DNA of 26,261 nucleotides, from positions 1 to 26,261 of the IMG/VR virus record IMGVR_UViG_3300032242_000131, one strand, 5' to 3'. Position numbers and translations under genes: made by a program. The notes beneath the pieces are model-generated. The model was not told where the DNA came from and did no database searches. It saw nothing but the letters and a program-made list of their open reading frames with translations. The stretch comes from a virus. Shown here one piece after another: positions 14,717 through 16,140 of the stretch; within the stretch, counting starts at the first letter, position 1; each line of letters begins with the position of its first letter.

Positions 14717-14973
14717 GTGTTTTCTCCTGATCTTGCTCGGATTGCGTCAGCAGTCCATCGCTCCATATATTTGTCAGCCAACTTTGCACAAGCCTCACGC
14801 TCCTCTGCAATAGCGCCACGCATGATGCCAAGGTAATGCGTTGCACAAGCGGCACGTTCATCGGCACGGACGATGGCGGCGAACTGTTCAAGATTAAGAC
14901 AACCTGCATCAGGTTCTCCGGCTTCTGCAATCCAACCCGCCTTAATAGCAAGTTTTTTGTCTCGTTCGTTCAT
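14713..14973 (-). CDS. Small Ala/Glu/Arg-rich protein (86 aa)
   Basis: Two ATGs lie six bases apart. The second, at 14973 (MNERDKKLAIKAG), is preferred because it overlaps the upstream TGA as ATGA and leaves TAGGAG at a proper seven-base distance. The product has LEQFAAIVRADERAACA, a helix (AEEREACAKLADKYMERW) and the C-terminal AIRAR motif. Small phage proteins with RADERAAC and AIRARG endings are frequent in early regions; their function is unknown. Confidence 0.75.
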   Translation of the reverse strand: MNERDKKLAIKAGWIAEAGEPDAGCLNLEQFAAIVRADERAACATHYLGIMRGAIAEEREACAKLADKYMERWTADAIRARSGENT

Positions 14974-15656
14974 TTCCATACTCCTAGTTGAGATACGTTT
15001 GTTTTAACTTGGTCTTTTACCCAATCAGCTTTGAATGATTGCCAATTGCGGACAACGACTTCTTTCAATGCGTCTTCCAATGACCAGCCAGCTTGCGTAG
15101 CTTCTTTTGCTATGCCTTGGATGACAAGTGACGTTACGGCAGCTTTCTTAGCTTTACGGTGCTTTATGAATTCTTGCCAAACTTCTTCAGAGACGCCTTC
15201 AGGCGTTGTATTTATGTTTGAAGATGAAGATGAAGATGAAGATGAAGGGGTTGGAATTTGTTTAACCTTTTCTTCAACCTTGGGGATAACCTTAAGGTTA
15301 ACCTTCAGATTAGGGTTTCCACCTAGCTTTCCACCTTCTGCCCTCTTGTTTCGGAGGGATTCGTCTCTAACCATGCGCTTGGAGTAAATTTCACCAGCAT
15401 CGGCAAGTTCGTAAACGCCGGCCTGACGTAGTTCATCCAACCAACCTTCAACTTCATGTAAGGTTGCCCCGACCATGCTGGCAAGGTTGGCTGAAAGGAT
15501 AACCTTGTTCCCAACCTTCAAGTGTCCATAAGGATTACCTTCGTGCATGAAACAGATCATGTCAATCCATAGCCCCCTAGCCCCTGTTGAACATGATCGC
15601 AACGCCGTATCTCTTAGCCAGTCCGATGGATAGAACTGAAAAGACGGGCGTTTCAT
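14970..15656 (-). CDS. DnaT-like replication organiser/initiator
   Basis: A 228-residue two-part protein. The N-terminal 100 residues (SFQFYPSDWLRDTALRSCST, then GLWIDMICFMHEG) are a winged-helix domain of the DUF1376/phage replisome-organiser type. A basic region and a 9-serine linker follow (about 137-145). The C-terminal 75 residues (EEVWQEFIKHRKAKKAAVT, then LEDALKEVVVRNWQSFKADW) match the DnaT/DnaD-like domain that binds single-stranded DNA and loads helicase. It is the second gene of the leftward operon and precedes the DnaB-type helicase, so it probably brings the helicase to the origin. It overlaps the 60-residue gene as ATGA. Confidence 0.85.
   Translation of the reverse strand: MKRPSFQFYPSDWLRDTALRSCSTGARGLWIDMICFMHEGNPYGHLKVGNKVILSANLASMVGATLHEVEGWLDELRQAGVYELADAGEIYSKRMVRDESLRNKRAEGGKLGGNPNLKVNLKVIPKVEEKVKQIPTPSSSSSSSSSNINTTPEGVSEEVWQEFIKHRKAKKAAVTSLVIQGIAKEATQAGWSLEDALKEVVVRNWQSFKADWVKDQVKTNVSQLGVWK
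15219..15246 (-). repeat. Hexanucleotide repeat encoding poly-Ser linker
   Basis: Four and a half copies of the 6-base unit GAAGAT (plus strand) encode nine consecutive Ser as alternating TCA and TCT codons in the linker of the replication organiser. Gain or loss of a unit changes the linker by two residues without breaking the frame. Confidence 0.9.
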
Positions 15657-15835
15657 TTAATTCCCCATGCTTCGCTAATAATGTGATCTTTTTGCTCAAT
15701 CAATACTTCAAATTGATGAACCGACAACCAAATAAGAATTTTTTGGTCATCGGGCAATTTTTGTACGAAAGAAATAAACCCATCACCATCACCAACAACA
15801 TCAGTCTCTAATTCAGCTTTTAGAAAGATTGACAT
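15653..15835 (-). CDS. Small acidic protein heading the replication operon (60 aa)
   Basis: A 60-residue protein (MSIFLKAELETDVVGDGDGF) with an acidic Gly/Asp loop and a helical second half (IWLSVHQFEVLIEQKDHIIS). Its stop overlaps the replication organiser start as ATGA. Its only ribosome site is GGGG eight bases upstream, directly after the U-tract of the structured element, so its translation and transcription may both depend on that element. No family is recognised; small acidic phage proteins of this kind often bind host or phage DNA-binding proteins, but that is inference. Confidence 0.7.
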   Translation of the reverse strand: MSIFLKAELETDVVGDGDGFISFVQKLPDDQKILIWLSVHQFEVLIEQKDHIISEAWGIK

Positions 15836-15844
15836 AAAAACCCC

Positions 15845-15946
15845 AAAAAAAAAGCCTTAGGCGGAACTCTCACCGTTGCCGGTGTTGGCGGACTGGGTAG
15901 TACCAGCAGAGTTCCATCTAAGGCTTACTACAAAAATCCCCGCCAA
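15845..15946 (-). ncRNA. Structured RNA/attenuator-like terminator after cro
   Basis: Read on the minus strand, a long stem pairs 15918-15926 with 15852-15860 (AAGCCTTAG/CTAAGGCTT), then after a 2x2 mismatch 15908-15915 with 15863-15870 (GGAACTCT/AGAGTTCC), and ends in U9. Its interior has two further hairpins, CTGG-TACTAC-CCAG and CACCG-GCAA-CGGTG; the latter has a GNRA loop only on this strand. Just upstream, TTGGCGG (15940-15946) is complementary to CCGCCAA (15885-15891) in the junction, allowing a pseudoknot or anti-terminator. It fills the gap between cro and the replication operon. It is at least a strong terminator; the complexity suggests regulated termination. I cannot match it to a named RNA class. 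Confidence 0.65.
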
Positions 15947-15960
15947 GGGACGCCTTAATC

Positions 15961-16140
15961 TTAACCTAACTTCTTAGCTGCTGCAATCTGCTTTTTGTAC
16001 TTAACCCGTATCAGCGACAGCCAGCCATCAGGGACGCCCCTGGTTCGCCAGTTATGGATACGGTTCGGCTTTACGTCCAGCTTCTCAGCCAGCTTCGTAA
16101 CGCTTCCAGCAGCCATGATTGCAATTTCTAAGCTATTCAT
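15961..16140 (-). CDS. cro: Cro-like/YdaS-type HTH repressor (59 aa)
   Basis: A 59-residue ORF starting at the ATG at 16140 (MNSLEIAIMAAGSVTKLAEK). It contains a clear helix-turn-helix (VTKLAEKLDVKPNRIHNW, about 14-31) followed by the RTRGVPDGWLSLIRV motif common in YdaS/Cro proteins, and a basic end (KYKKQIAAAKKLG). It is divergent from the rightward early genes and lies beside two TCACA-TGTGA operators that would be its targets. Such proteins shut down early transcription, or act opposite a CI repressor. No CI gene is in this window. The start is the only plausible one: the ATG follows the promoter with about 30 bases of leader. Confidence 0.85.
   Translation of the reverse strand: MNSLEIAIMAAGSVTKLAEKLDVKPNRIHNWRTRGVPDGWLSLIRVKYKKQIAAAKKLG

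Follow-up and report, generated by a model that had tools for sequence, protein, structure and literature searches.

What is the function of the RNA that lies between an early cro-like gene and the replication genes of a phage, and is it more than an ordinary terminator? The question is raised by the window analysed here, i.e., the whole 26,261-nt stretch of DNA of the virus record IMGVR_UViG_3300032242_000131. The element under study is a minus-strand RNA of 107 nt (15951-15845), positioned in the gap that follows a Cro-like gene (15961-16140) and precedes the next gene, which starts at 15835. Elements of this kind are carried by many freshwater bacterial viruses directly before their DNA-replication genes, and they probably decide if the remaining viral genes are switched on. 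The following genes flank the element in the window:

15961..16140, minus strand: upstream Cro-like DNA-binding protein with a YdaS-type helix-turn-helix (Pfam PF15943, E 2.6e-6, slightly below the cut-off; transcriptional regulator in PHROG)
15653..15835, minus strand: small downstream gene, from the ORF list and the sequence, with its start codon 9 bases past the U tract; no family match in Pfam or PHROG
14970..15656, minus strand: replication initiator (O-like, replisome organizer), the first large downstream gene (PHROG 678, E 7e-18)

The stop codon of the Cro-like gene lies about 10 bases upstream of the first hairpin. From cro leftwards, the main genes (replication, packaging, structural, to tail) are all encoded on the same strand. 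The original prediction had placed the RNA between cro and the replication operon; this holds for the window and is general across the loci studied.

Read from 5' to 3', the element consists of a hairpin (P1), a short linker, a GTAGT strand, a long stem (P2) enclosing two hairpins (P3 and P4), and nine U. Its parts, aligned across 113 distinct members, are given below.

15937..15950, minus strand: P1 hairpin, stem TCCC/GGGA with the six-base loop TTGGCG (15946-15941); compensatory changes in three of the four pairs
15941..15946, minus strand: 5' strand of the first pseudoknot (PK1), i.e., the P1 loop TTGGCG, partner of 15890-15885; its first four bases, TTGG, are invariant
15927..15931, minus strand: 5' strand of the second pseudoknot (PK2), GTAGT, immediately 5' of the terminator stem; all five pairs covary
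15918..15926, minus strand: lower 5' strand of P2, the base of the terminator stem; covarying pairs with 15860-15852
15917..15917, minus strand: hinge mismatch, A opposite C 15861; sole non-canonical pair of P2 in 109 of 113 members, and at the hinge position in 106
15908..15916, minus strand: upper 5' strand of P2; covarying pairs with 15870-15862
15892..15907, minus strand: P3 hairpin, GCTGG/CCAGT, with an invariant G.U at its base; its loop holds the 3' strand of PK2
15897..15901, minus strand: 3' strand of PK2, ACTAC, in the P3 loop
15885..15890, minus strand: 3' strand of PK1, CGCCAA, at the junction of P3 and P4
15871..15884, minus strand: P4 hairpin, with a GCAA loop in the window; the stem is formed in all members
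15852..15870, minus strand: 3' strand of P2
15845..15853, minus strand: nine-T U tract of the intrinsic terminator; its first two bases are part of P2 as well

The 102-base stretch first proposed has a minimum free energy of -39.8 kcal/mol (z = -3.4), and none of 200 shuffles was as stable. The two-segment stem ending in U9 was borne out, with its count of 17 base pairs corrected to 18: P2 (15926-15908 with 15870-15852) consists of two 9-bp segments split by a single A.C mismatch. With this GC-rich stem followed directly by the U tract on the coding strand, the element has the sequence of an intrinsic terminator. Both enclosed hairpins, one with the GCAA loop, are present on the minus strand. 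The predicted location (15845-15946) was right, but the 5' boundary had to be moved to about 15951, and TTGGCGG turned out to be the loop of the small hairpin P1. Its complementarity to the junction (TTGGCGG, 15946-15940, with CCGCCAA, 15891-15885) corresponds to PK1, which is paired in 113 of 113 members and shows compensatory changes. PK2 is an addition of the present analysis. The GNRA loop, in contrast, lost its standing as a feature; the P4 loop differs in length and sequence across the family and has no functional support.

Is this fold conserved? The first 102 phage loci were gathered by protein homology (Cro-like gene, small downstream gene, replication gene) and not on the basis of the RNA. 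A profile search detected the element in 37 of them, yielding 31 distinct and well alignable sequences. The structure, including both pseudoknots, was named before pairing was counted. The 44 named pairs were formed in 96.4% of cells, compared to 77.9% in shuffles; with the partner strand shifted by 1-3 columns, pairing was at most 44%. Double-sided changes were found in 231 cells against 65.5 in shuffles, which correct for relatedness only partly. RNAalifold predicted P1 to P4 unaided from this alignment.

The set was then much larger in IMG/VR. At least 120 contigs match a pattern scan, and all 100 of the pattern contigs searched with a covariance model scored at least 74 bits, with a single copy per locus. 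More than 110 distinct relatives in phage contigs retain the whole architecture. The 113 aligned members have a mean pairwise identity of 0.71, and 42 named pairs are formed in 97.5% of cells (slid controls, below 43%); PK1, P1, P3 and P4 reach 100% and PK2 98.6%. There are 821 double-sided changes versus 223 in shuffles, with the same partial correction for relatedness. The search pattern itself partly dictates P3 and the constant half of PK1; the first 31 sequences, chosen independently, gave the same result. Changes were also counted on a tree built without the pseudoknot columns. In PK1, the last two pairs show double-sided changes (CG/AU/UA; GC/AU/CG), each at least five times. For the five pairs of PK2, at least 28, 33, 12, 10 and 12 changes of pair state were counted, pairing being retained. 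P2 covaries along its whole length, and P3 occurs as GCGGG/CCCGT in L002, L007 and L008. Conservation peaks in PK1 and P3 at about 1.8 bits per column, versus 1.2 in lower P2. The longest T run after P2 is 6-9 in all members fetched except three, and a run of at least five is present in all except one.

Compensatory changes had been proposed as the check on the stems and on TTGGCGG/CCGCCAA. Indeed, the inner hairpins and PK1 are conserved and covary, and all relatives keep P3, P4 and PK1, none being reduced to the outer stem. A chance origin of the fold is excluded, because the protein-selected relatives and the larger set both keep nearly all named pairs.

The strand of action can be read from the non-Watson-Crick pairs. 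Excluding the hinge and one invariant G.U, 156 G.U pairs were counted against 10 A.C pairs, which places selection at the level of the RNA transcribed from cro towards the replication genes. A function at the DNA level, such as an origin hairpin or a cruciform, was rejected on this asymmetry. A coding function was rejected as well, as indels of 1-2 bases and compensatory changes occur throughout the element.

In line with the original prediction, the element matches no named class. Scanned against Rfam 15, it reached no family at gathering score and nothing meaningful at E up to 10; nine other members gave no match at E up to 1. Neither the Polynucleobacter-1 RNA (RF01718), searched in the whole record at E up to 10, nor the model of int-alpA RNA (RF02996) matched. 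A literature search of partial coverage returned no published description, and the element may correspond to a motif of a survey of 224 candidate RNAs that was later omitted from Rfam. Within that coverage, the double-pseudoknot terminator RNA appears to be a previously undescribed family, and on sequence grounds it is well supported, with more than 100 members absent from Rfam 15.

The surroundings of the element are less constant than its core. The upstream gene usually encodes a helix-turn-helix protein, and several unrelated small genes also occur. Proteins encoded directly downstream fall into dozens of unrelated clusters, among them replication proteins, small proteins of unknown function, and HNH and GIY-YIG nucleases. 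Nonetheless, the next start codon lies 7-15 nt past the U tract in 125 of 134 loci, and a replication-type gene is nearby in 119 of 144. The RNA is therefore linked to a genomic location, at the head of the lytic operon, and to no particular gene family. A search of the neighbouring ORFs for a universal protein partner found none; the only common neighbours are the replication gene and a divergently oriented gene for an ERF recombinase (98 of 144 loci). The RNA also seems to have been exchanged as a module. Between the window and L002, identity is about 95% in the Cro-like gene and in the first part of the replication gene, yet only 47 of the 106 bases of the element align (81%). Diverged versions of the RNA (window 15845-15951, L002:3190-3296) are thus set between near-identical flanks. 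Free-standing HNH or GIY-YIG-like nucleases have often inserted precisely where the RNA adjoins the replication gene (directly after the element in L165, L080, L127, L140, L179, L195, L208, L220, L202 and L186), as though the conserved RNA sequence were a homing target.

Known phages have no DNA similarity to the 1-kb region of the window. The element of a relative gave two weak matches to them, MW202462 and MW202544, the first being a true family member by profile. A hypothetical protein annotated antisense across this member (MW202462.1, 33654-33896) is probably not a gene. Plasmids had no similarity to the relative's element and only short chance matches to that of the window. Among 84,980 species genomes, 26 pattern matches were found, of which two are real: L246 (Polynucleobacter) and L230 (a betaproteobacterial MAG). 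In searches of the genus and of the family, one of 186 and one of 401 genomes, respectively, had the element. Such rarity in chromosomes indicates a phage element and not a host RNA. The two genomes point to betaproteobacterial hosts.

The spacing to the upstream gene brings in the ribosome. In 116 of 137 loci, the end of an ORF with 45 or more codons is no further than 30 nt from P1; at control positions this holds for 6%. The ribosome is therefore a serious candidate input. A ribosome finishing the early gene would sit on P1 and choose between PK1/PK2 and the terminator, so that translation of the early gene sets the expression of the replication genes. This attenuator would be a special case of a regulated terminator. 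However, short spacing is expected anyway in compact phage genomes, the gap exceeds 60 nt in 11 of the loci, and 4 have no such ORF. We regard coupling to translation as unlikely.

How, then, could the element act? Regulated termination would be the natural reading of a conserved U tract together with alternative covarying pairings. Our favoured explanation, which we consider rather likely, is that the element, heading the replication and late operon, works in cis as a regulated terminator (attenuator) that folds co-transcriptionally. While RNA polymerase moves out of the cro-like gene, P1 would form, then P3. The P1 loop would dock on the junction (PK1), and the P3 loop would capture the strand just 5' of the terminator (PK2), keeping the 5' strand of P2 free. 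Once transcribed, the 3' strand of P2 would zip from the top. The lower nine pairs, beside the U tract, would have to compete for closure with the abutting 5' strand of PK2; the hinge mismatch divides P2, and the lower half must presumably close for termination. A pseudoknot fold that persists for long enough would let the polymerase continue into the replication genes. Otherwise, lower P2 would close and transcription would stop upstream of the ribosome-binding site of the next gene.

Folding of the consensus is consistent with this order of events. For an RNA ending before the 3' strand of P2, the best structure is PK1 enclosing PK2; at full length, it is P2, the terminator. Both alternative pairings are under selection: P2 covaries along its length, and PK1 and PK2 covary too. 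Their mutual exclusion is suggested by the spacing: only 0-1 nt separates the 5' strand of PK2 from the base of P2, which argues for a steric conflict with lower P2. PK1 alone and the full terminator could coexist, and in an opposite model docking may aid the terminator.

The energetics favour the closed terminator, with -46 kcal/mol for the full fold and only about -3 to -4.5 for the PK2 duplex. A stabilising partner or a kinetic effect must therefore be assumed for the regulated terminator. A host-supplied partner would be the most likely input, either a small molecule or a host protein, e.g., of the transcription machinery, because the flanking phage genes vary while the RNA core is constant and the identified hosts are betaproteobacterial only. 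It would bind at the peak of conservation, PK1 and P3. A riboswitch would combine a conserved aptamer fold with an alternative pairing of its expression platform. In the phage element, alternative covarying pairings, which may exclude each other, are present and the core is the most conserved part; the gene context of the loci gives no hint of a small-molecule ligand.

The same energetics could speak for a constitutive structured terminator, in which the pseudoknots lock or speed up the hairpin, or shield the cro transcript at its 3' end, with a fixed fraction of read-through and no switch. All members have a U tract and a complete P2, the full terminator exceeds every other fold in stability by a wide margin, and in a second RNA family at the same site (see below) the tertiary pairing is compatible with a closed terminator. 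Yet two pseudoknots and an invariant core would be superfluous in a plain terminator, and PK1 and PK2 fold earlier than lower P2, apparently at its expense. Moreover, 111 of 113 members retain a mismatch somewhere in P2, for which a simple strong terminator would have no need. On balance, a terminator of this fixed kind is fairly improbable.

Related phages without the double-pseudoknot element carry other structured RNAs before their replication genes. In one family, found in 47 IMG/VR stretches, the seven-base loop of a hairpin kisses the loop of the next terminator hairpin (L021:2868-2999, L024:2868-2993, L089:3686-3813, and 47 pattern loci, L375-L420 and others). Examples are GTACTAG/CTAGTAC and GGTCGAG/CTCGACC. 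The kissing pairs are formed in 26 of 26 distinct sequences, with double-sided changes in three of the seven pairs, and 98.8% of all named pairs form. Two members, L021 and L024, had no match in Rfam. These terminators are unrelated to the double-pseudoknot element, and a TATAAT-like box is often found directly upstream of them. Furthermore, the int-alpA RNA model (RF02996) matches directly ahead of the replication gene in three loci (L004:2938-3004, L024:4674-4740, L065:3907-3975). Compensatory variants of a loop-downstream pairing (CGTTAC/GTAACG, CATCAC/GTGATG) were observed in L012, L004, L006 and L173. In L066 (1086-1225) and L082 (266-394), terminators enclosing inner hairpins lie upstream of replication genes and are unrelated to the element of the window.

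Because unrelated structured RNAs fill the same slot, RNA control of the replication operon is suggested to be a general habit of such phages, one of early-operon control overlooked by protein-centred annotation. A bolder and only tentative proposal is that freshwater Burkholderiales phages gate their replication and late operon by interchangeable RNA switches, with at least two undescribed families and int-alpA in one slot, and that replication is timed by direct sensing of a host-derived signal by the double-pseudoknot family, with no phage protein involved. If the element is a switch, it would give protein-independent control of the decision to replicate. In any case, an unusual double-pseudoknot terminator architecture occurs at a fixed place, the head of a phage replication operon. 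As a switch of 107 nt, with one terminator and a clear read-through assay, it would offer a simple system for the control of intrinsic termination by tertiary contacts.

Several known systems share traits with the element. Like terminating riboswitches (fluoride/crcB, ZTP/pfl), it has a conserved core overlapping the terminator and predicted alternative early and late folds; unlike them, it is phage-borne, has no Rfam match and no associated metabolic gene suggesting a ligand. The int-alpA RNA occupies the same place before the replication gene, and its loop can also pair downstream, but its sequence and fold are unrelated and it has no U-tract terminator of this kind.

The put RNA of phage HK022 suppresses termination without dedicated protein factors and is described as two hairpins in a V shape, the text mentioning no pseudoknot (PMC9378689). 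Both are cis-acting RNAs of an early phage operon. By analogy, the folded element might bind the elongating polymerase and make it terminator-resistant. It has the genomic place of putR, past the early rightward promoter and ahead of the replication genes, and a mode of action needing no phage protein is consistent with the varied gene neighbourhood. Nevertheless, a pseudoknotted three-way junction differs from two hairpins, and the terminator here closes the element itself; those on which put acts lie further downstream. An action like that of put is quite unlikely.

A striking likeness, though without sequence homology, exists to the repZ leader of IncI-alpha plasmids. According to titles cited in PMC10724649, the loop motif of the ColIb-P9 target RNA is UUGGCG, and a pseudoknot upstream of the replication initiator serves as the switch (among them Asano and Mizobuchi 1998 for the IncI-alpha and IncB repZ leader). 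As in that description, UUGGCG (exactly the P1 loop, 5'-UUGGCG-3') pairs with CGCCAA in a pseudoknot with a replication gene near. A counter-transcript with the loop CGCCAA could accordingly be imagined to block PK1. However, the plasmid pseudoknot controls translation and is countered by antisense RNA, while the phage element involves a terminator. The absence of similarity to plasmids also argues against antisense control. In a consensus scan, which is weak evidence, opposite-strand promoter-like sites in the element and the next 150 bases were not enriched (10% of loci versus 16% of shuffles). Control of this type is very improbable. In its favour, the invariant UUGG of the P1 loop fits a YUNR U-turn.

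A parallel in position is found in phage lambda. Its terminator tR1, between a Cro-type gene and the replication genes, is controlled by N and nutR, and read-through turns on everything downstream. No nut-like site or N-like gene was identified for the window element. The element is likewise a terminator between a Cro-type gene and replication genes; what sets it apart from tR1 is that its terminator contains two conserved pseudoknots and a three-way junction.
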